Of a stretch of DNA of 64,000 bases, positions 1,034-13,570 are shown piece after piece. How positions within the stretch are numbered: position 1 is the stretch's first letter; each line of letters starts with the position of its first letter. The notes beneath the pieces were generated by a model. It had not been told where the DNA came from. It saw only the letters and a program-made list of their open reading frames with translations, and ran no database searches. Made by a program: the position numbers and the translations under genes. This DNA comes from an uncultured Coriobacteriaceae bacterium (lineage in GTDB: Bacteria > Actinomycetota > Coriobacteriia > Coriobacteriales > Atopobiaceae): assembly GCA_902779675.1 (NCBI GenBank), contig CACZCK010000013.1, positions 1 through 64,000 of the forward strand, in the 5' to 3' direction.

Positions 1034-2323
1034 ATGCAGATCGGATGGATAGACTTCTCACCAGAGGAACGGAGTCGGACGCTCACGGTCCTCAGCTCAC
1101 TTTCTGAGCCCGGATCGGTCGATGAGCTTGGTGTTGGCATCGTCCGCGATGCTATGGCAGACCGGCTGTTTCCAGGTACCTCAACGCTTCTCACCAAGGC
1201 ACGTTACTTCTTTCTCGTTCCGTACCTATCGCGCTACCTAGAGCGGGGGCACGACAACTCGCGCCAAGACCCCAGAGCTCTTCGCAACGCTTTTCGCGAT
1301 CTGGAGCGGCAATGTGCCGCCGGGCTTAGGAGCTGCGCAAAGGCTAGCGGTCATTCGGACGAGGGAATCATTGGCAGGGTGGCTCTGGCGAGTGGCAAAT
1401 GGGTCACTCGAGGCCCGGGCGAGATCTACTGGGCTTCGCTTCGCACGCTCGGCTTTATGAGGCAAGGCGCTCCGGACAGCTATCAGGCGCAGTTTGCCTA
1501 TCTCTCTGACGTGCGGACACGAGACCAACAGTACCGCACCGCTCCATCCGACGGCGATGAAGGAGATGGTCTTTCGGACGACAGGCTGGCGCTTGGCAGC
1601 ATGTGGAACCTGCCAAGAGACTCGTACGATTGCTGGCGTGAAGCGTGGAAGCAGTGGGACTCAGAAGCCTCCATCGCACTTACGCGCGAGGAGGCGCTGT
1701 TCCTGCGCGATCGCGTCGTGTCATCTCGTCCCGATTCCCTGTATGCGCTCATCCTTACCGATGAACAGTTGCGCCAAATGGCGCTGGCATCCGTTTATGG
1801 CGAAGGTGGTACGCTTGGCGACTCGTCACTTCACGAGTTTCTTTTGCACGGGTTGGCGCGGATACAGAGCCTCTCACCTGAGCTGGCGCAGACGTGTGCG
1901 ATCGCCGACGCGTTCAGCGAGCTGGTTCTTGGTTGTCGCATTGCTTACAACATGCAGCTAAGTGGCCTCGAGGAGTCTGGCTCGCATGAGTGGGATGAGT
2001 TTGCGCCTCGTGTAGCCAGCGTTGCTCGCGATGTCGACCTCACAGCTGTGGGGCATGTGCTTGGCCTCAGCAGCCATCATGGTTTTCATGCCCTGCGAGC
2101 CTTTCTTCTTCGTTCGGCTGCTTGCATAGAAGCTGGAGACCTCGAAGGTCTCAAGGAGCAGGTGAGACGCCGAGAGGCAGCTATCAAGGGCGCAAGACGC
2201 AAGATCGGTGCCAAGAACGCTGGCGAGTTTGCCTGGCGCGGGGGCCATCGGCTGCCGTATCGCTTTGCCAATGCGATGGCAATCGTGCGTGAGATCGAGG
2301 AAGCGGGTGGCTGCAATGCTTGA
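1034..2323 (+). CDS. DUF6361-like protein, first gene of candidate defence operon
   Basis: A cytosolic protein of 429 residues. I chose ATG 1034 (MQIGWIDFSPEERSRTL) because AAAAGGACAAGCT lies just upstream and the alternative ATG at 962 adds residues that look non-coding. The N-terminus IGWIDFSPEE, then LSEPGSVDELGVGIVRDA and FPGTSTLLTKARYFFLVPY, matches what I remember of the uncharacterised DUF6361 family. No nuclease, helicase or membrane motif is visible. A basic helix (EQVRRREAAIKGARRKIG) near the C-terminus could contact nucleic acid. It overlaps the next gene by 8 bases, so the two are probably translationally coupled. Role inferred from context: a sensor or scaffold for the nuclease and helicase downstream. 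Confidence 0.75.
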   Translation: MQIGWIDFSPEERSRTLTVLSSLSEPGSVDELGVGIVRDAMADRLFPGTSTLLTKARYFFLVPYLSRYLERGHDNSRQDPRALRNAFRDLERQCAAGLRSCAKASGHSDEGIIGRVALASGKWVTRGPGEIYWASLRTLGFMRQGAPDSYQAQFAYLSDVRTRDQQYRTAPSDGDEGDGLSDDRLALGSMWNLPRDSYDCWREAWKQWDSEASIALTREEALFLRDRVVSSRPDSLYALILTDEQLRQMALASVYGEGGTLGDSSLHEFLLHGLARIQSLSPELAQTCAIADAFSELVLGCRIAYNMQLSGLEESGSHEWDEFAPRVASVARDVDLTAVGHVLGLSSHHGFHALRAFLLRSAACIEAGDLEGLKEQVRRREAAIKGARRKIGAKNAGEFAWRGGHRLPYRFANAMAIVREIEEAGGCNA

Positions 2324-4232
2324 GATGGATGAGGGGCGCGTCAGCTTCGCGGACGCACTGAGGCCGCCTGAGGGATACGAGCTCTCCTTTGCGGTTGGCA
2401 CTACCTATTCGCTGGACCTCAGAGCTCTGCTCGGTATTTGTATTCCTCTGGGTCTTGGGTTTGAGCCAGAGGCTCTCTACTCGGTAAATCCCATAAGCCT
2501 TTTTGCGGCGCTCAAGACACTGCAGGGCAAGCTTGTGGTGTACTGCGACAAAGGGAGCATGCGTGCGGACGTTGCCGCAAACAGCAAGACGTCAGGCCTC
2601 CTCATGCTGCTCGAGGAGATGGTCCATCAGGTCCATGTGAACCGACATCGCAAGGATGCGCTGTCTTCCTTTCATCCCAAAGTATGGGTTATCGAGTATG
2701 CCGCCCGTGACGGGGGAGCGCCGCTCTACAGGCTCATGGTGATGAGCAGAAACCTGACGTTTGACACCTCGTGGGATGTCGCTGTGTCGTTGGATGGCCA
2801 GCCAGGCGAGGGCAACAGCTGCTCCGAACACGTGGCCCAGTTCCTTGAATTTTTGGCAGGAGGAGACTCTCTGACCACAACTGAGCAAGATGACACGCGC
2901 AAACGCGGCTCGCATACGGCGCGTGTCAGGAAGCTTGCGGACGCAGTGCGTGGGGTGCAATTCAAGGTCGACAACAGAAACTTCGAGGCGGTGGAGTTTC
3001 TTCCGTTTGGCCCTCAGGGTGGTAGGCAGACCGGGCTCTTGGATGCTCGGAAATGCGATCTCCTCACGTGGCGGTGGCGGAGCATGCTTGTGGTGTCGCC
3101 GTTCCTCAGCAGTGGGGACGACTCTCCGTTGGCTGTGATGTCGCGTCACAGAAGTGGAGTTTCGGGCAGGTATGTCTTGCTGAGTAGAGAAGACTCCCTG
3201 ATGGAGCTCCCGAGTGGGATGCGTGACGCCTACGAGTGCTTCTGTCCGGCTTCGTCGCTTGCGGATGTTGAGCTCGAAGGCGATGGCGGCGTCGACGCGT
3301 CGGACTATTCCAACCTGCACGCAAAGCTGTACTTCTCGCAGGATATGGGCGGCAGGCGAAGGCTTTGGGCTGGTTCGCTCAACGCCTCCCGCAACGGCAC
3401 GTTCAACAACGTGGAAGCACTCATTGCGTTGAGCGTAAAGCCGAGCCACCTTACGTTTCATCAGATGCTGAAGCCACTCATTGGGGATGGGGGAAAGGAG
3501 CGCCCTCCCTTTGTACCGTTCGACCCGCCCAGTGTTGCAGAAAGCGTTGCGGAGGACGACCAGGAATTCAGGCGCGCCTTTCGTATTGCATCGCGTCTCG
3601 TGAGTTTCAAGGGTGTGAAGGTGCGTGGCGATGCAGGCGACGCCTCGATGGATGTCACGATCGAGGTGGGATCAGCTGTCAAGGCTTGCAAGGGCGTCTC
3701 CCTCTCGATGAAACCGCTCCTCGCGTCTGAGTACGCGCAGATAGAGATGGGGACGCGTGCCAGCAGGCAAGAGCTATCGTTCATGGGGCTTATCCCCGAA
3801 CAGGTATCAGCCTTCTTTGTTCTTCAGGGCACTGACGATGAAGGTAACACCAGGTGCTGCGTGACGGTCTGTCCGCATGACAAGTTTGATGATGCGGGGC
3901 TCTCGCTTGAAGCTAGGAGTAGCAAGGTCTTGGGCGCCATCCTCTCTCAGAACGACAGGGGGCTTTCGCAGTATCTTGCGCACGCCTTCGACCTGCCCGA
4001 GGCGGCATATGCCATCAATAGCGAAAGCCAGAGCTCTTCCAGCCCAACCACTGCCAAAAGCCTCTCTGTACCAGCAGGGTTCTACGAGCGTCTCCTTGAT
4101 ATGGCGGACACGAGCCCCGACGTGTTTGACCGTGCGACGCAGCTTTTGGAGCTCATACCAGATGACGTGCGAAACGACCAGCTCGATGAGCTTCGCGGCC
4201 TAGTAGAGACGTTTTCGAAGGCGGTGAAGTAG
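2316..4232 (+). CDS. Phospholipase-D-fold nuclease-like protein
   Basis: A 638-residue protein read from ATG 2316, which overlaps the stop of the preceding gene. It has two HxK half-sites, as a complete PLD-fold active site needs: H120PK122 followed by MVMSRNLT, and H335AK337 followed by AGSLNAS and NVEAL. The first third is a Rossmann-like region (VGTTYSLDLRALLG), the C-terminal 250 residues are unassigned. PLD-fold proteins of defence islands (for example DrmC of DISARM) act as nucleases or membrane lipases. With a SNF2 helicase one base away, a DNA nuclease is the more likely role. No signal peptide is present. The family assignment is firm; substrate is inferred. Confidence 0.82.
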   Translation: MLEMDEGRVSFADALRPPEGYELSFAVGTTYSLDLRALLGICIPLGLGFEPEALYSVNPISLFAALKTLQGKLVVYCDKGSMRADVAANSKTSGLLMLLEEMVHQVHVNRHRKDALSSFHPKVWVIEYAARDGGAPLYRLMVMSRNLTFDTSWDVAVSLDGQPGEGNSCSEHVAQFLEFLAGGDSLTTTEQDDTRKRGSHTARVRKLADAVRGVQFKVDNRNFEAVEFLPFGPQGGRQTGLLDARKCDLLTWRWRSMLVVSPFLSSGDDSPLAVMSRHRSGVSGRYVLLSREDSLMELPSGMRDAYECFCPASSLADVELEGDGGVDASDYSNLHAKLYFSQDMGGRRRLWAGSLNASRNGTFNNVEALIALSVKPSHLTFHQMLKPLIGDGGKERPPFVPFDPPSVAESVAEDDQEFRRAFRIASRLVSFKGVKVRGDAGDASMDVTIEVGSAVKACKGVSLSMKPLLASEYAQIEMGTRASRQELSFMGLIPEQVSAFFVLQGTDDEGNTRCCVTVCPHDKFDDAGLSLEARSSKVLGAILSQNDRGLSQYLAHAFDLPEAAYAINSESQSSSSPTTAKSLSVPAGFYERLLDMADTSPDVFDRATQLLELIPDDVRNDQLDELRGLVETFSKAVK

Positions 4233-4233
4233 C

Positions 4234-7200
4234 GTGGCACATGGACCAAGCGTAAGGGAGCGTCTGGAATCCATCGACAAGGCCGTGATGGGTGGCCTTA
4301 CTCCGTTTCAGCGTGCGACGGTCGAGCATATCGCAAAGTTGTACGCAGATGGGCAACAGCGCGTGCTCGTGGCCGATGAGGTCGGGTTGGGAAAGACCCT
4401 GATTGCACGTGGCGTGATTTCAAAGATTGCTCGGTTGCGCGAGGGAGAAGGAGACGACCTCGTCAAGGTTGCCTACGTGTGCTCTAACGCCTCTATCGCT
4501 GCACAGAACATCTCGAAGCTTCGTATTGACGGAGATGTCCAGCTTGCTTCTGCGGGGTCTTCGCGCCTTTCCATGCAGCACCTCAAGATCGCACGAGAAC
4601 GTGGTGACGAGGAGCTAAAGGCTCGCTACATCCAGATAACCCCGCTCACGCCTGGTACTTCGTTCTCCATTAGTTCGGGTACCGGCACTATGCACGAGCG
4701 CGCGCTCATCCTTGCGGTGCTTGCATATGACGGGCGCTTTTCAAGGGACTCGGGCCGCTACGAGCGGTTGGGCGAGCTCATGTGGGACAGAAGAAGTAAC
4801 TCCAACCCTGGCGGTTGGGGATGGTGGCGTCATTGCACAGAGGAGGATGTTTATCGGGTTCGCGAGGGAGATCCGGAGCGTGGGGAAGAAACTGGCTATC
4901 CCTATGATGTGCTCAAGAAGGTCGAGCTAGAGCTTGCAGAATCAGGCGGGCTCACTTTTGCCTCGCTCTGCGAGTATCTCGACTCTGATGAGCGGGACAG
5001 ACGTCGTGAGCGAAGGGCTATCAACGACTTGAGGCGTGCCTTTGCCAAAGTGTGCGTAGACATGCTGAACCCCGATTTTGTCATCATGGACGAGTTCCAG
5101 CGGTTCCGTAGCCTCATCGCCGACAACGACTCCGAGACGTCGATGCTTGCCAAGCGTTTCCTTGGCGGCAAGACAAGGGTCCTGTTGCTTTCGGCCACGC
5201 CGTTTCGCATGTATTCGACTGATGCGGAGCTCGACACGGGTGGGTTCGGCGACTCGTATCATGAGTTCCTCGAGGTCATGGACTTCCTTGGCGAGGGAAA
5301 GGCTGATAAGCATGAAGCGTTCCGGCAGGTTTGGGGCGACTACGCGCTTTCAATAAAGAGCCTTGGTGCCGGGACGTGCGATGTGGTGTCGGTGCGCGCA
5401 TCAAAGGATGCGGCCGAGGCTGTTGCCCGAGGCTATATGACTCGAACGGAGCGGCAGTCTACGGGCGAGCTTGGCTCGATCGTAGAGAATGAGAAGCATG
5501 TTCAGACGATTGAGATTACCCCCAACGACGTGAGGGCGATTGTCCGAATGCGCGGCCTCATGAGGGAAGCGGGCATCAGGCGTGGCCTCATGAGTGCCGA
5601 CTTTGTTAAGTCCTGTCCATTCCCCCTGTCGTTTATGTCGGGGTACAAGCTGTTCAAGGAGCTTGAAGCGAAGTCTGCCAAGAGGCCAAGCTTGATCAGT
5701 GCAAATAAGCGAGCGGACGGCGGGCTGCTCTGGCTGCGCAGATGGGATATTGCCAATTACGACCCGCTAAGTGTGCGCAATGCGCGCTACCAGGCACTTC
5801 TTAAGGACATTGCCGCAAAGGAAGACAGTGAGGATGGAGGCAAGGGAGGCGTGCGAGCCGAGCGTCTTCTCTGGATTCCCGCAAGCAGGCCGTACTATCG
5901 CCCAAGTGCCGATTCTCCGTATACCAGTACCCGTGGGTTCTCAAAGATGATTCTGTTCTCGTCGTGGGCTATGGTTCCGCCGTCGCTTTCATGCCTGCTC
6001 TCTTACGAATTCGAGCGCAGGAATGTGAAGAAGCTGAAGCGGGCAACTGGCAAGGAGTTTCGTTACTTCAAGGATGAGGACGAACGGGTGGACGAGACAA
6101 ACGACTCTCAGGCTCTGCCGCGTCGTCGCATGCGCTTCGACAAGGACCAGCACAATGCGTTTCTCCTGCTCTATCCGTCTCGGTACCTCGCCAGTTTGAT
6201 TAACGTCAAGGAGCTTGCGTCTTCTGAAGGCGCCACGTTGACAGACCTGCGAAGGTCCATGAGGCGTCGTATAGCTGAGGTCCTGCCCAAAGCGTTGGGC
6301 CTCGAGCGGTTGCCTGAGGGTGTCGATGGCCGACGCGCGTCCGTCGATTGGTACGTTGTTGCTGCCCTGAGGCTCGACGAACTGGCTGGTCATAATGTCC
6401 TCGACGAGATTCTCGGACAAGAGGGGATGCGGGGGCTTCAACTCGACAACCATTACGGGACAGAAGTTGCCGTGCTAAAGCAACTCGCCGGGATATCGGA
6501 GAGTTGGGACGCGCGTGATCTCGGACGATTCCCCGCTGACCTGGTGGATGTGCTTGCAGATGCGGCTATCGCATCACCGGCGGTATGCGCTCTGAGGATG
6601 TACGGGGCATACACCGAGCATGTGCCCGCATGGATGGCGTTCCAGTTTGGCCATGCCTTCGTAAAGCGCATGAACACCTCTTCGGCTACGCTCACCGTGG
6701 CAGCCGTGATGGAGCACAGGGATGAGGCCTCGTCTCATTGGAAGAACCTGCTTGACTATTCCTGTGAGGGCAACTTGCAGGCGGTCCTGGACGAGTACGC
6801 CTACCTGCAGAGACCAGTTGGAGTGAGCCTTGACGAGCGGGAGACAGTGCTGCGGATGCACAAAGCGATGGTGGGGCCAGGCGATGAACCCGACCTTCGA
6901 AATGTTGAAGCTGTGCATGGCGTGCGCGTGCCCACATCCGCAGGAACCAAGAAGCGAATCGACAGCATGAGGATGCGGACCAACATCGCAGAGGCATTTA
7001 TGGATGCGAAGTCTCGGGCTACAAGCGATGCGGTCGTATCCCGGGCAAACCTCAGAGAGGCGTTCAACTCGCCGTTTAGACCTTTTGTGCTGGTGAGTAC
7101 CTCTGTTGGCCAGGAGGGTCTCGACTTTCATAGCTACTGCCGCAAGGTGTGTCACTGGAATCTTCCCTCCAACCCTATAGACCTCGAGCAGCGCGAGGGG

Positions 7201-7641
7201 AGGGTGAACCGCTACCAGGGGCTTTCCGTGCGCCAGAGCATTGCAGGTCGTTACGGCAAGATGAGGTTCGATGGCAAGCCGGGCAGCGGGTCAGTCTGGC
7301 AGCAGATGTTTGAAGCTGCGGAACTTGAGGAGCACAAGCGCGAGAATGGCGATCTGGATTCTGGATTGCTCCCAAACTGGGGAGTGACTGATGGGGATGG
7401 ATTGGTGCCAGTTGAGCGCTATGTGTACCTCTATCCCTTCAGCCGAGACGTGGCGCAGTACAAGTCGCTTATTGACCAAGTCTATCACTATCGCATGGTG
7501 ATTGGTCAGCCGGATCAGGAGGAGACGCTACGCCTGCTCCATGAGCGTGTGGAGGACGGCACGCTGAGCGAGGATGAGCTCGGTGATCTATACATCAACC
7601 TGTGTCCGTTTGTGCAGAAATCGGAACAGGTGCGTGATTAA
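4234..7641 (+). CDS. SNF2-type DEAD/DEAH-box helicase
   Basis: A superfamily-2 ATPase of 1,135 residues. It begins at GTG 4234, one base after the stop of the PLD gene. Motifs in order: Walker A DEVGLGKT with K54, Walker B variant D286EFQ, motif III S320ATPF, and motif V-VI as STSVGQEGLDF then QREGRVNR (986-993). The DEFQ box and the GLDF/QREGR signature are those of SNF2/RapA-like DNA translocases used in DISARM and related defence systems. A long insertion of about 450 residues (roughly 450-900) separates the two RecA lobes. It probably moves along or remodels DNA to present it to the PLD protein. Rare and AT-ending codons are more common here than in the housekeeping genes, which suggests transfer. 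Confidence 0.9.
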   Translation: MAHGPSVRERLESIDKAVMGGLTPFQRATVEHIAKLYADGQQRVLVADEVGLGKTLIARGVISKIARLREGEGDDLVKVAYVCSNASIAAQNISKLRIDGDVQLASAGSSRLSMQHLKIARERGDEELKARYIQITPLTPGTSFSISSGTGTMHERALILAVLAYDGRFSRDSGRYERLGELMWDRRSNSNPGGWGWWRHCTEEDVYRVREGDPERGEETGYPYDVLKKVELELAESGGLTFASLCEYLDSDERDRRRERRAINDLRRAFAKVCVDMLNPDFVIMDEFQRFRSLIADNDSETSMLAKRFLGGKTRVLLLSATPFRMYSTDAELDTGGFGDSYHEFLEVMDFLGEGKADKHEAFRQVWGDYALSIKSLGAGTCDVVSVRASKDAAEAVARGYMTRTERQSTGELGSIVENEKHVQTIEITPNDVRAIVRMRGLMREAGIRRGLMSADFVKSCPFPLSFMSGYKLFKELEAKSAKRPSLISANKRADGGLLWLRRWDIANYDPLSVRNARYQALLKDIAAKEDSEDGGKGGVRAERLLWIPASRPYYRPSADSPYTSTRGFSKMILFSSWAMVPPSLSCLLSYEFERRNVKKLKRATGKEFRYFKDEDERVDETNDSQALPRRRMRFDKDQHNAFLLLYPSRYLASLINVKELASSEGATLTDLRRSMRRRIAEVLPKALGLERLPEGVDGRRASVDWYVVAALRLDELAGHNVLDEILGQEGMRGLQLDNHYGTEVAVLKQLAGISESWDARDLGRFPADLVDVLADAAIASPAVCALRMYGAYTEHVPAWMAFQFGHAFVKRMNTSSATLTVAAVMEHRDEASSHWKNLLDYSCEGNLQAVLDEYAYLQRPVGVSLDERETVLRMHKAMVGPGDEPDLRNVEAVHGVRVPTSAGTKKRIDSMRMRTNIAEAFMDAKSRATSDAVVSRANLREAFNSPFRPFVLVSTSVGQEGLDFHSYCRKVCHWNLPSNPIDLEQREGRVNRYQGLSVRQSIAGRYGKMRFDGKPGSGSVWQQMFEAAELEEHKRENGDLDSGLLPNWGVTDGDGLVPVERYVYLYPFSRDVAQYKSLIDQVYHYRMVIGQPDQEETLRLLHERVEDGTLSEDELGDLYINLCPFVQKSEQVRD

Positions 7642-7664: not shown

Positions 7665-9245
7665 ATGCAAGACCGCTACGCGGGTGACATCGGGGACTAT
7701 GGCAAGTTTGCCCTGTTGAGGACCCTTGCTGCGAAGGGGCTCTCGATTGGCGTCAACTGGTATCTGGTCGAGACGCCGCCTCAGGAGCTCGCGGTCAACG
7801 ATGGCGGGAAGCTGATACCCAACGGGCTGGCTGCATGTGACCCCGAGCTTGCCGAGGTGCTGCGGGGCATTTCCCGTAGACCAGAGCGTTCTGTGCGCTC
7901 GCTCGAGAAGGCGTGCCTCGTGCCGGGCGCGCGCTATTTCGCCTATGTTGTGCCCGTCGACGGCCGTGCTGCCTGGCATGACCGGGCCCTTTCCGCACTT
8001 GCCGGAGCTGACCTGGTCTTTCTCGACCCAGACAACGGCTTGCTCGTAAAGTCAGTGGGGAAGGGCTCTGCCAAGAGCCCCAAGTACGCCTTCTACGAGG
8101 AGGTAGCCGACTATATTGCCCGGGGCCAGAGCGTGGTGGTGTACAACCATCGCAGCCGCAAGAAAGCCGACGTCTACTTTGGCGAGATCTGTGAGAGACT
8201 GAGGGCTGTCGTGTCGCAGGGGAGCGCAATTGCCGCTATCACGTTCCCCAAGGGCTCCGTGCGTGACTACTTTGCTGTTTGCGCAGGTGACGAGCATGCA
8301 AGCCTCGTGCGCGAGGTGTTCGAGGAAATGGCCGGTGGCGTGTGGGGCGATGCGGGCATGTGCAAGCTGCCGCAACTGCCGGCTCGTAACGTCTCCGTGG
8401 TACGTGAGAAGGGGAAGACCACCACGACTGTTCATACCGGCGCCCCTGCTCCAACCCAACTCGGCTTCTGGCGTGAGACCGAGCCGCTGGGCTTCTGTAG
8501 TAACTGGCATCCTACGGGCTTCGACTTCCGCGGGACGCACTTTGCCACGGGCGAGCACTGGATGATGTGGCAGAAGGCGTGCCTAATGGGCGATGCTGGT
8601 AAGGCCGCCCAGATTCTCTCCGCGCCAACCCCGCGCAAGGCCAAGGAGCTCGGGGGAGAGGTCAAGCCCTACGACGGCGCGCTTTGGGATGCCGTGCGCG
8701 AACAGCTTGTCTATTACGGCGTGCGAGAGAAGTTCCTGGCCAACGATCTGGAGCGCAACCTGCTGCTCTCCACGGGCTCGGCGCTGCTGGCCGAGGCGTC
8801 GCCCTACGACAAAGTCTGGGGCGTGGGCATGACGGCCGATGATCCGCGGTTTGCCAACCCCGCCAAGTGGGAGGGTCAGAACCTACTGGGTCGCGTGTGC
8901 ATGCGCGTGCGCGCCGAAATCCGCCAGCTCTGCGCGCTTGGGTGCCTGGACGAGGCACGTGCGGGAGGTTCCGAGCTGGACGACGCGATTGCACGGATGA
9001 CGCTCTTGCAGCTCTCGCGTGTGCCCGCGGCCAGAGCTGCGGTTTACTGCTATGCGACGATTGCGAGCCGTGCGGCTCCGAAAGCTTATCCCACACCTGG
9101 TGCGTTCCTCAAGAAGGAGCACGACGCGACCGTGGAGGGCATCACCAAGGCGCTGGAGGCTGGTAAGGGTGGCAAGCTGCCCATAACCGGCTGGTACGAG
9201 CTCGTCCGCGAGCTGTGCATCCAGCAGGCCTTGGGGAGGCTGTAG
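7665..9245 (+). CDS. Fusion protein: uncharacterised N-terminal domain plus NADAR domain
   Basis: A three-part protein of 526 residues, 23 bases after the helicase gene, with GAGAGAGGG before ATG 7665. Residues 1-235 match a stand-alone bacterial family that begins QDRYAGDIGDYGKFALLR and has the signature FLD121PDNGL; its function is not known to me. Residues 274-415 are a NADAR (YbiA-like) domain: FCSNWHPTGFDF, the conserved GE297HW, YDKVWGVG and GQNLLGR. NADAR enzymes act on N-glycosidic bonds, and some reverse ADP-ribosylation of guanine bases. The last 110 residues are helical and unassigned. In this operon it may protect host DNA, remove a nucleotide mark or cleave a signal nucleotide; all three are inference. 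Confidence 0.82.
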   Translation: MQDRYAGDIGDYGKFALLRTLAAKGLSIGVNWYLVETPPQELAVNDGGKLIPNGLAACDPELAEVLRGISRRPERSVRSLEKACLVPGARYFAYVVPVDGRAAWHDRALSALAGADLVFLDPDNGLLVKSVGKGSAKSPKYAFYEEVADYIARGQSVVVYNHRSRKKADVYFGEICERLRAVVSQGSAIAAITFPKGSVRDYFAVCAGDEHASLVREVFEEMAGGVWGDAGMCKLPQLPARNVSVVREKGKTTTTVHTGAPAPTQLGFWRETEPLGFCSNWHPTGFDFRGTHFATGEHWMMWQKACLMGDAGKAAQILSAPTPRKAKELGGEVKPYDGALWDAVREQLVYYGVREKFLANDLERNLLLSTGSALLAEASPYDKVWGVGMTADDPRFANPAKWEGQNLLGRVCMRVRAEIRQLCALGCLDEARAGGSELDDAIARMTLLQLSRVPAARAAVYCYATIASRAAPKAYPTPGAFLKKEHDATVEGITKALEAGKGGKLPITGWYELVRELCIQQALGRL

Positions 9246-9299: not shown

Positions 9300-10058
9300 A
9301 TGAGCCTGCTCAACCTTCTGCGCGGCGAGGAGCCGGGCTACTTCAAGAACATCTCCGTGCAGTGGCGCGAGGGCACGGGCGGTCTGGGGGAGTACTTGAC
9401 CGAGTACGCCCTTGAGCACGGTGACCTGCCCGGCCGCAGGGCGGTGTTCCGCAACGTGCTGGTGCCCCGCAGCTCTGGCCCCACGAGCGAGTCCGAGGTC
9501 GACGTGCTCATGGTCCACGAGACTGGCGTCTACGTGATGGAGTCCAAGAACTACGCGGGCTGGATCTTCGGCGACGCCGAGCAGCGGCAGTGGACGCAGA
9601 CGCTGGAGCGCGGGCACAAGAACCGCTTCTACAACCCCATCATCCAGAACCGCGCGCATGTGAAGGCGCTCGCGGCGTGCCTGGGGCTGCCAGAGGACGC
9701 GTTTCGGTCCTACATTGTGTTCTCGGAGCGCTGCGAGCTTCGCAAGGTGCCGGCGAGCACGGAGGCATACGCGATCTGCCAGCGCCAGCACCTGCTCAAG
9801 GTGCTGCGCAAGGACATCGCCGGGCGTGAGCGCCGCTTCTCCGACGAGGAGTTCGACGCTCTGGCGGCCAAGGTCGGTCAGCTGGTCGCAGCCTCCACCG
9901 ACGAGGCGAAGGCCGAGCACGTGGAGCAGGCTCAGCGTGTGAAGGCCGGCGAGGTCTGCCCCAGGTGCGGCGGAGAGCTGGTCCGCCGCAAGGGCAAGTA
10001 CGGCGAGTTCCTGGGTTGCACAAACTACCCGCGGTGTAGGTTTACGAGGAATGCGTGA
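9300..10058 (+). CDS. NERD-domain nuclease-like protein with topoisomerase-type zinc finger
   Basis: A 252-residue protein. The N-terminal 180 residues are a NERD domain, a member of the restriction-endonuclease fold, with the catalytic pattern D68 ... E81-x-K83 in [20 protein letters not shown]. The C-terminus holds a four-cysteine zinc finger of the type-I-topoisomerase tail kind: C220PRC223 ... C240TNYPRC246. This pairing is widespread and is expected to bind and cut DNA. It lies 54 bases after the NADAR fusion gene on the same strand, so it may be the last gene of the candidate defence operon or an independent neighbour. The only upstream purine-rich site (GTGAGGAG) is further than ideal from ATG 9300. 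Confidence 0.85.
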
Positions 10059-10263: not shown

Positions 10264-10719
10264 ATGAGCGAGTATGAACAGGCAACTCTCGCAAAGAACC
10301 AGCGACTGACTATCATCATCAGGTTGATAGCAACTGTAGCCTTTGTTTCTTTGGCACTGATCTCATTCGCTAAACTCTCCGATCGGTTCTCATCTCCAGA
10401 AGCTTATTCTCACGAAATCGAGCAGCTTGACAAAAGAAAAGAAACCGCAGCTACTCTGTCAGTTGTCGCGGCAGCGGCTTCTGCTGGCGTTACAATCATT
10501 CCCGATGATGTCTGCACGCCGATTGCACAACAATTAGCCGAAATCAGCAAGGATCTTGGTATCGTAACGGGTGCGGTGATCTTGGAGAAATACGCGATGA
10601 CCATCTTGGGCTTTGCAGTGTTTCGCTTTATCCTGCCACTGACGATGTTGGTGCTCGCTGTGTGTGCCATAGCACCAGATTCTTCTTCCACTTTTTGGCG
10701 CCGTGCGGTGCTGCTGTAG
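10264..10719 (+). pseudogene. Membrane protein, N-terminal part of a frameshifted gene
   Basis: The frame from ATG 10264 (GAGGGGGAACAA upstream) gives 151 residues: a first membrane helix (TIIIRLIATVAFVSLALISF), a charged stretch, an alanine-rich segment and a second helix (LGFAVFRFILPLTMLVLAV). It resembles the front of a coriobacterial inner-membrane family that continues with a further helix and a long loop. That continuation is found here in the minus-one frame from about base 10690. One extra T in the run at 10692-10696 would join both parts into one protein of about 329 residues. I therefore treat this and the next entry as one gene, broken by mutation or sequencing error. Confidence 0.6.
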
Positions 10720-11252
10720 TTAGAGTGCTTCTGGCTTCACTGATTATCTGGTATTCGGTGCCGCTTGGAGTCAGGGCATCAGATATGATTTTTGATACCT
10801 ACGAAGAGACAATTAACAACGCTATTGAAAACGCTAAGCTTGCGGAGGAGCTGACGAAGCAAAAGGATGAGGCGAGCAGGAGTTCGGATGCTGCTTCGGA
10901 TAGGAAACTCGAGTTCTCTATTGATGGCTTTGTCGACGCGCTGGCATCCATTCCCTCGGCAATTGCCAACGTAGCTGGTTCGGTCGCTTCCTCTGCCAGC
11001 GATAAGGTCTCTGTCTTGGTGGGGTGGGCGAAGGTTGTCCTTACTCAGATTACAGAGGGCTTTGCGGTTCTGGTTGTGACAACCTGCATCATTCCTCTGC
11101 TTGTGCCTTTGTTGATGTTCTGGCTCGCTAAGCTCTTGCTTCAGCCGTCATCTGCGTCGCTTCCTTCGCTCCCGCAATTTGCCAGCGTTTCGCTCCTTCC
11201 CTCTGCAGATCAGAATTCCCTTGGGTCACCAGTTCGCAATCGGAAGAAATAG
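10662..11252 (+). pseudogene. Membrane protein, C-terminal part of a frameshifted gene
   Basis: This frame supplies the second half of the gene that begins at 10264. True homologous sequence seems to start near 10690 (FLAPCGAAVVRVLLASLIIW); the residues before it are out of frame. It has a membrane helix, then a loop with a short coiled coil (NAIENAKLAEELTKQKDEA), an Ala/Ser-rich segment and a last strong membrane helix (AVLVVTTCIIPLLVPLLMFW). No convincing ribosome binding site precedes ATG 10662, which argues against an independent gene. Function unknown. Confidence 0.55.
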
Positions 11253-12127: not shown

Positions 12128-13570
12128 CTAGCTGACGCTCTTTAGAACGGCCTCTGCCTCAGAAATATCCGTCTTCGTGTACTCCCAGTCGAAGCCACTT
12201 GAATCGGTCAGAATCAGTATCGAGTCGTCTCCTGACCTCTTGAACTTGAGATGCTCTTGGAAGCCATCGTCGACATAATCGACCGTGAGGCCGTTATCAA
12301 GATCGCCCGAGCAAGGCAATACCATAGAGCCTGAATCGTTTGTGCCAAAGTACGTTACCGTCTTGTCGTCAAGGTCGATTAGGTAGTAGAGATCGTAGTT
12401 GGACATACTTCTTATGTAGGCATACTCGTACTTCGAGGTAGCTTTGGGCTTGCTCCCCGCGTTGGTGTTCGTCTTTGTGCTTGTCTCCGCCTGCTTGCTT
12501 GTTTTCTTCTGTGTGGCCGCGTCCTTCTTCGTGGTCTCTGCTTCCTTGTCTGCCTCGACCCCCTTTTCAGCTTCAGCCTTCTTCGCAACCTCAGCCTCGT
12601 CAGCTGTTAGAGCATTGATGATGGATGCCTCAAGCTTCTGCTGTTGAGAATCACTCAGATACCTTGAGGTGCGAATCACATACTCGCCGTTTGTCGTGTG
12701 CGAGCCAGCTAGGCTAAGGAAGCTGCCTGCGGAGCCTAGGTATTCGTCACGTGCCTGGGCGTCCTTCTCATTGCGGAACACCTCTACGCAACCACCGCCG
12801 TCAGTGCCCCTATCGATGACGTCGTCACCCTTCACCTTCTCCTCGACCAGATCTGACGAGAAGAACACTGCCGCGATGTAGCTGTCGTCCTTGCTGAGGC
12901 CCTTATTTGGATCGTGGTCTTTGGTTGCAGCTGTCGGCTCTTGGATATGCTCAACTCCCGTAAGACGGCCGATGACGAATTCTGCTGCCTGACTGCCTGC
13001 ATCCTCGGAGTCTCTTGCATCCGACTTGTTATCGTCGCTGGTCTCCGCCGAATCCGATTTGTCATCTTCGGCTATCGTTTGGCTCGCCTCTATCTCTGAG
13101 CCTGCCCCCTCAGCACTGGCATCAGACTTGTCCTTGCCGGAAGACGCGCCCATACCGATGTAGATAATCCAAGCTATGACGATGATGCCTATGCGGACCT
13201 TCTCATCCAGCTTCTTGTTGCGCATCATCAAGATCGTTAGGGGTATTGGGAAGATGAATATCCAGCCAAGAACCCATAACCACGTCTTGCGCTTCTTCTT
13301 TGGCCGCCCTTGTTGTTCGGGTATTTGCATAGGCTGCGATGGTATCTGATAGGGTTGCTGGGTTGAGCTCTGGGCGAACTCTGCCTGCGCTCTCTGACGA
13401 CCCTTCTCAAATTCATAGCCTGCTTGCTCAGCATTGTCGTAGCGTATATGCTGCGCTTCATCATCAATGGGAAACGTTGTCCCGCAGAACTGACACGAAG
13501 CCTGTCCCTTTTCAATATCCACGTTCAGTTGTGCTCCGCACGCCGGACATGTGAATGCGACCAACTTCAT
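12128..13570 (-). CDS. Zinc-ribbon membrane protein
   Basis: A 480-residue protein. It opens with a zinc ribbon (CPACG ... CQFCG, residues 9-33), then a Gln/Pro-rich linker, a basic patch PKKKRKTW and two membrane helices (near residues 97-120 and 128-145). A long low-complexity stretch rich in Asp, Ser, Glu and Ala follows, then an outside domain that starts FVIGRLTGVEHIQEP. A second low-complexity Lys/Thr/Ala run (near 355-395) leads to a C-terminal beta-rich domain. Proteins with this layout are common in Coriobacteriia and unstudied. The low-complexity parts suggest a spacer through the cell wall. Confidence 0.75.
   Translation of the reverse strand: MKLVAFTCPACGAQLNVDIEKGQASCQFCGTTFPIDDEAQHIRYDNAEQAGYEFEKGRQRAQAEFAQSSTQQPYQIPSQPMQIPEQQGRPKKKRKTWLWVLGWIFIFPIPLTILMMRNKKLDEKVRIGIIVIAWIIYIGMGASSGKDKSDASAEGAGSEIEASQTIAEDDKSDSAETSDDNKSDARDSEDAGSQAAEFVIGRLTGVEHIQEPTAATKDHDPNKGLSKDDSYIAAVFFSSDLVEEKVKGDDVIDRGTDGGGCVEVFRNEKDAQARDEYLGSAGSFLSLAGSHTTNGEYVIRTSRYLSDSQQQKLEASIINALTADEAEVAKKAEAEKGVEADKEAETTKKDAATQKKTSKQAETSTKTNTNAGSKPKATSKYEYAYIRSMSNYDLYYLIDLDDKTVTYFGTNDSGSMVLPCSGDLDNGLTVDYVDDGFQEHLKFKRSGDDSILILTDSSGFDWEYTKTDISEAEAVLKSVS

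Follow-up and report, generated by a model that had tools for sequence, protein, structure and literature searches.

A 64,000-nt stretch of DNA from an uncultured Coriobacteriaceae bacterium (the window, meaning the whole stretch that was analysed) encodes a 526-residue protein in which an unannotated domain with a modelled RlmJ-like fold is joined to a NADAR domain and a helical C-terminal tail, and we found that the position of its gene is best explained by a defence hotspot in which the neighbouring genes are exchanged. Relatives of the unannotated N-terminal domain (N-domain) recur beside ADP-ribosyl hydrolases and beside genes for the restriction of modified DNA. Our tentative proposal is that the protein removes ADP-ribose in an accessory role, with an N-domain that binds a substrate containing adenine, beside the restriction of modified DNA.

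A three-part protein encoded in four Coriobacteriia genomes

The fusion gene begins 23 bp after the end of the helicase gene (zacC) and ends 54 bp before the NERD gene, its ATG is preceded by a purine-rich, ribosome-binding-like stretch, and its product divides into the following parts:

7665-9245, + strand: fusion protein gene, 526 aa, intact ORF with no internal stop
7665-8369, + strand: N-domain, residues 1-235, RlmJ-like fold in the model, no family match
8370-8465, + strand: linker, residues 236-267, varying across the four fusions in the alignment
8466-8924, + strand: NADAR domain, residues 268-420, PF08719 (E 1.9e-42)
8925-9242, + strand: C-tail, residues 421-526, helical, AlphaFold2 (AF2) pLDDT 89

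Full-length three-part homologues with 71-73% identity end to end were found in three other Coriobacteriia loci (L029, L030 and L031), giving four Coriobacteriia genomes with the fusion, the window's included. Among 398 genomes of the class, a search found three with the full-length fusion: the window's own and two same-genus genomes, which by coordinates are those of L029 and L031. Its recurrence at full length in three further genomes ruled out a chance joining of frames or a frameshift artefact. The intact ORF and its homologues bear out the first-pass annotation, which had described a NADAR domain fused to an uncharacterised domain and had placed E297 and the YDKVWGVG and GQNLLGR motifs where we find them. 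Its NADAR match at residues 274-415 was confirmed by Pfam, with borders at 268 and 420, and the third module, residues 421-526, had been left unseparated. Stand-alone copies of the N-domain, which it had also described, were seen as well, including in the same genome.

The C-tail accompanies NADAR without the N-domain in many Coriobacteriia proteins, whose other domain is DUF6508 or ADP-ribosylglycohydrolase (ARH; L173, L180), and its AF2 model had no fold match in the PDB. Two of these proteins carry two unrelated ADP-ribosyl hydrolases, ARH and NADAR, on one chain (L180, 6758-9808, - strand; L173, 370-2583, + strand), and the one in L180 also has a DUF6508-like domain and Sel1 repeats. In L030, a 398-residue open frame (730-1923, + strand) without Pfam or PADLOC match runs in frame into the N-domain of the fusion, and the fusion there has a good ribosome-binding site before an internal ATG.

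The NADAR half retains its catalytic set

NADAR enzymes are erasers of guanine ADP-ribose whose physiological substrate is known in only a minority of cases. The NADAR half of the fusion scored 145.8 bits against PF08719 (cut-off 35.1) and 145.6 bits against TIGR02464 of NCBIfam (curated cut-off 73.7). In the P. nicotianae NADAR, E43, K50, E125, D130 and W133 are the catalytic or ligand residues, each of which binds ADP-ribose or is required for its removal from guanine (PMC11543638). Their counterparts in the fusion, E297, K304, E377, D382 and W385, have identical spacing and are invariant in an alignment of all four fusions. The loss of such residues in close homologues, to which the first-pass annotation had pointed as grounds against its reading, was thus not seen in any of the four, and because the catalytic set is intact and conserved, the base-ADP-ribose or N-glycoside chemistry that it had predicted is plausible.

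The fusion shares this catalytic set with the YbiA-type NADARs (E. coli YbiA, P. nicotianae NADAR), scores far over the curated cut-offs and, like them, has Glu at the catalytic-acid position (E377), but it differs in the RlmJ-like domain in front, the helical C-tail behind and the location in a defence hotspot. YbiA and stand-alone NADARs remove ADP-ribose from guanine in vitro (PMC11125620, PMC11833690). The DarT1-NADAR (DarTG1) toxin-antitoxin systems are alike in having NADAR as a candidate base-ADP-ribose eraser in a defence setting, whereas DarT1-linked NADARs (BC4488 subfamily) have Asp where the fusion has E377, and the fusion has no DarT partner: DarT was found neither in the operon (Pfam, PADLOC) nor in the genome assembly. 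Pfam, NCBIfam and PADLOC also recognised no ADP-ribosyltransferase in the operon as a source of the adduct.

The defence systems that DefensePredictor has turned up include NADAR proteins (PMC13092281). The NADAR anti-phage protein DS32_2 (NF053876) and PDC-M42C have the NADAR domain in common with the fusion, but their models are about the length of the NADAR domain alone, and the fusion scored 38.5 against NF053876, for which the cut-off is 240.

The N-domain has an RlmJ-like fold without the cofactor motifs

Residues 1-235 matched no family in Pfam, NCBIfam, PHROGs or PADLOC and nothing by sequence in the PDB. An alignment of 72 homologues, in which G7, D8, D11, K14, W32, R101, D121-P-D-N-G125, E146, Y160 and H162 are invariant, was used as input for an AF2 model with very high mean pLDDT (95.8). 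Foldseek matched this model to RlmJ (E 9.5e-4), and the top ten VIA-align rows were all RlmJ/DUF519 (Z 9.1-10.5, 190-204 residues aligned), followed at a moderate margin by other methyltransferase-fold proteins (Z ≤8.2). A TIR, ART or nuclease fold was set aside, with none among the listed Foldseek or VIA rows.

RlmJ (DUF519, PF04378) is the 23S rRNA m6A2030 methyltransferase. Its residues K18 and D164 are essential (PMC3814359). In several rows the superposition starts with the RlmJ numbering four ahead of the model (n+4 against n), and in this register G7, D11 and K14 fall on RlmJ G11, D15 and K18, which are invariant in an alignment of eight RlmJ sequences. D121 comes directly after the strand preceding RlmJ motif IV and was matched to D164 by topology only. 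On this model, the N-domain would have a counterpart of Lys18 and probably one of Asp164. The N-domain also departs from RlmJ: the motif IV DPP(Y/F) is replaced by DPDNG in all 72 sequences, NWYL follows the first strand where RlmJ has the glycine loop of motif I that binds SAM (DTHAGAG), and Y4 and H6, also essential in RlmJ, have no counterpart.

Sequence comparison gave no significant link between the two. PF04378 was not matched by the N-domain at E ≤1 in Pfam, and a search for it across the phylum returned sub-threshold matches only, none of them in the window's genome. When the N-domain profile was compared by hhalign with the eight-sequence RlmJ alignment, p was 0.065, inside the range of 100 column-shuffled controls, and the comparison with E. 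coli RlmJ alone was not significant. With profile similarity not significant, homology to RlmJ is argued from the fold (Z about 10) and three residues. The model suggests an RlmJ-like scaffold that has largely kept the adenine-reading residues and lacks the features by which RlmJ methyltransferases are recognised. Since the cofactor and DPPY motifs are not conserved, methyltransferase function is not readable from the fold, which by itself establishes no function for the N-domain. An N-terminal fold of known, unrelated function had been named in the first-pass annotation as evidence against its view, and the result is divided: the fold is that of an m6A methyltransferase, but the motifs that accompany that function are not there.

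The fusion gene occupies a defence hotspot

Directly upstream of the fusion gene, PADLOC identified ZacA, ZacB and ZacC in order on the same strand, and a NERD gene follows downstream:

1034-2323, + strand: ZacA (DUF6361), PADLOC ZacA 4.4e-76, Pfam DUF6361 1.7e-25; the start is the ATG at 1034, picked within a longer ORF
2316-4232, + strand: ZacB (PLD-like), PADLOC ZacB 1.2e-107, weak PLDc_2
4234-7641, + strand: ZacC, SNF2/DEAD-type helicase, PADLOC ZacC 1.1e-262, DEAD and Helicase_C
9300-10058, + strand: NERD with topoisomerase-type zinc ribbon, PF08378 5.8e-26, PF01396 2.5e-16

The first-pass annotation had assigned the fusion to this helicase-nuclease machine, an assignment that did not survive comparison with other loci. 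Among the seven ZacC-bearing Coriobacteriia genomes, the fusion follows ZacC in the window's only and is missing from the six other Zac loci (PADLOC ZacABC) examined, some of which end near a contig end, while three of the four fusions (L029, L030 and L031) have no Zac in the stretch read. The downstream side, in turn, is partly shared: the zinc-ribbon membrane protein gene that comes after the fusion gene in the window (12128-13570) also comes after it in L029 and L031, and the genes at 10264-11252 of the window are also present in L029. Upstream, L029 and L031 have PDC-S30 with or without HNH, and the window has Zac. GC3 is 0.76 in the fusion gene versus 0.62-0.66 in the Zac genes; it reaches 0.90, above the neighbours, in the NERD and zinc-ribbon gene, which is absent beside the other fusions. 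Because other Zac loci are without the fusion and different defence genes stand upstream in sister genomes, a role as Zac subunit was ruled out in favour of a hotspot accessory.

Two further observations concern these loci. The overlapping ORFs at 10264-10719 and 10662-11252 (+ strand) of the window each match part of one 314-aa protein of L029 (10215-11159), so that the gene may be split by a frameshift. In L191 (5288-7309, - strand), macrodomain and VWA genes lie directly after ZacC, in the place that the fusion has in the window.

N-domain relatives recur beside ADP-ribosyl hydrolases

A scan of about 85,000 species genomes yielded at least 296 N-domain loci, of which the best 80 were examined, and 15 N-domain loci were present in IMG/VR; none was found in deposited phages. 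Neighbourhood genes were called as greedy longest ORFs, so some neighbours were missed or are spurious (e.g. L067, L089 and L188).

Four types of ADP-ribosyl hydrolase accompany the N-domain, namely NADAR (fused), macrodomain, ARH and microbial PARG. Macrodomain genes lie near it in L004/L109, L032, L053, L056, L110, L086, L089 and L094 and farther off in L067, ADP-ribosylglycohydrolase genes in L004, L032, L054 and L055, and a microbial PARG gene 20 bp upstream of it in L054. L004 and L032 have further genes in common and were therefore counted as related elements. ADP-ribosyl hydrolases made up 10 of the 241 genes within 1.5 kb of the N-domain gene and 1 of the 452 genes farther away (OR 20, p 1.7e-4, by a test that takes genes as independent and is therefore generous). 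On a tree of 73 N-domains, the hydrolase label required 10 changes, at least 6 of them forced by well-supported branches, indicating that the pairing arose or was lost repeatedly. These recurrent neighbours and the tree extend beyond a single fusion the tie between the unknown domain and ADP-ribose chemistry that had been suggested from the window. About 80% of 67 non-redundant N-domain loci had no hydrolase inside 1.5 kb in the scan.

Other arrangements were seen as well. In L054 (682-4435, + strand), four consecutive genes encode SseB-like, ARH, microbial PARG and N-domain proteins and form a compact operon for the removal of ADP-ribose. Five N-domain proteins from Ruminococcus and relatives have an SDR-like C-terminal domain, which Pfam recognised in L050 and which was assigned from sequence similarity in L051, L059, L061 and L074. 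In L062 the SDR-like protein is encoded by a separate gene, the next one, 19 bp downstream of the N-domain gene. A divergent N-domain gene on an Ensifer plasmid (L026, 9014-11319, + strand) is flanked by two GIY-YIG nuclease genes.

Genes for restriction of modified DNA lie nearby

The McrBC and GmrSD/DUF262 families restrict modified DNA. McrBC was found directly upstream of the N-domain, or of a macrodomain and N-domain pair, in L004, L056, L110 and L058, a McrB-like gene near the N-domain in L116, and a GmrSD/DUF262-type gene before it in L032 and L122; a VWA gene comes after the N-domain locus in L053, L056, L086 and L110. The enrichment of restriction genes beside the N-domain was modest (8/241 near versus 3/452 far, p 0.02). 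NADAR-C-tail genes without the N-domain adjoin GmrSD-like genes and genes for Mrr, another modification-dependent family, in L176, L177, L179 and L181. In L177, from a same-genus genome, the segment 5607-18649 (- strand) contains McrB, McrC, GmrSD-like, DUF6508-NADAR-C-tail and Mrr genes together with an N-terminally truncated N-domain gene.

Discussion

We tentatively propose that the fusion protein has an accessory role as an eraser of ADP-ribose adducts. Its gene would travel in a defence hotspot of Coriobacteriia, behind whichever DNA-targeting defence cassette fills the site, which in the window is Zac. By analogy with characterised NADARs, the NADAR half of the protein would release ADP-ribose from a base of DNA, RNA or a nucleotide by cutting the N-glycosidic bond that joins them, the base being guanine in the known cases. 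The N-domain would be a repurposed RlmJ-like fold in which the adenine-reading pocket is kept, with K14 and D121 corresponding to Lys18 and Asp164. Because this pocket appears to be kept and the SAM glycine loop and DPPY are lost, the domain would most likely bind adenine, either that of ADP-ribose or that of nucleic acid, and deliver or process the adduct rather than methylate. Working next to enzymes that cleave modified DNA, such an activity might clear self nucleic acid of ADP-ribose or take it off phage DNA; the ligand of the N-domain, the substrate and the direction, self-protection or attack, are what we infer here. Against the eraser reading count the absence of a recognised ADP-ribosyltransferase from the operon and of DarT from the genome, the large share of N-domain loci without a nearby hydrolase in the scan, the non-significant profile similarity to RlmJ, the loss of Y4 and H6 and the modest restriction enrichment, and the clade with the SDR-like protein fused or adjacent, like the many stand-alone copies in ordinary-looking surroundings, fits it less easily.

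Other readings divide the evidence differently. The N-domain could be an active SAM-dependent base methyltransferase (adenine N6 or similar) whose mark on host DNA or RNA spares it from the neighbouring cassette, with NADAR as a separate repair activity on the same chain. RlmJ as the best fold match, the catalytic positions of K14 and, by topology, D121, and neighbours that include McrBC, GmrSD-like genes and Zac would all agree with this, but we consider it unlikely, given that no methyltransferase family of Pfam or NCBIfam is matched and that NWYL and invariant DPDNG stand in place of DTHAGAG and DPPY. Methylation would, moreover, not be protective in the usual way, because McrBC- and GmrSD-type enzymes restrict modified DNA. 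We are also doubtful that NADAR and N-domain together degrade an NAD- or ADP-ribose-derived signal, or a toxic metabolite of infection, and so set a threshold for defence with no part in nucleic-acid repair. One survey describes the co-occurrence of macro, NADAR and related domains in NAD/ADP-ribose conflict networks and proposes low-molecular-weight substrates (PMC9503650), which speaks for a small molecule, as do the N-domains fused to or beside an SDR-fold protein of NAD(P)-binding type; the neighbours, however, are DNA-acting enzymes, and Pfam, NCBIfam and PADLOC recognised no TIR, SLOG, sirtuin or other signal-making gene in the window operon.

It is quite improbable that the N-domain is itself an effector or toxin, a writer whose antidotes would be the ADP-ribosyl hydrolases fused to it or lying next to it, on the model of DarT-NADAR pairs. 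Unrelated hydrolases paired with it in several lineages are what interchangeable erasers would produce, yet the fold is that of a methyltransferase and not of an ADP-ribosyltransferase, many copies stand alone in hydrolase-free surroundings, and a permanent fusion of toxin and antidote would be unusual. We likewise give little credence to a mainly metabolic repair enzyme that would share the annotation of E. coli YbiA, riboflavin-intermediate N-glycosidase, and would have come to the hotspot by chance: the TIGR02464 score over its cut-off and the YbiA-like E377 fit, but the neighbours of the fusion are defence candidates, and NADAR-C-tail proteins lie repeatedly beside GmrSD-like, Mrr or McrBC genes or are fused to ARH. 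Among these readings, the accessory eraser is the one that we prefer.

A wider generalisation, which we regard as somewhat unlikely, would make the N-domain the founder of a group of RlmJ-derived, SAM-independent enzymes or readers of the adenine end of ADP-ribose or of ADP-ribosylated bases. Together with NADAR, macro, ARH and PARG domains, it would couple ADP-ribose chemistry to modification-dependent restriction (McrBC, GmrSD, Zac), which would sense, or be licensed by, ADP-ribosylated nucleic acid.

Of the components, NADAR chemistry, Zac and RlmJ have been described before. Neither the family libraries nor the literature searched yielded the N-domain family, its joining to NADAR or its repeated association with ADP-ribosyl hydrolases and McrBC/GmrSD-type genes. 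The macro/NADAR/SLOG toolkits of NAD-ADP-ribose conflict systems (PMC9503650) are alike in grouping unrelated ADP-ribosyl-processing domains by operon or fusion; the RlmJ-like N-domain and its pairing with McrBC, GmrSD or Zac were not found in the searchable literature, passages of that survey included.

Fusion or adjacency connects the unannotated N-domain, which has more than 290 relatives, with ADP-ribosyl hydrolases of four kinds and with genes of McrBC/GmrSD type, and does so in several independent lineages. If true, this link would identify a missing component of NAD/ADP-ribose conflict networks and would offer the testable idea that some type IV restriction operons handle ADP-ribosylated DNA. 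The N-domain is also an example of how a methyltransferase fold may come to serve another base chemistry.
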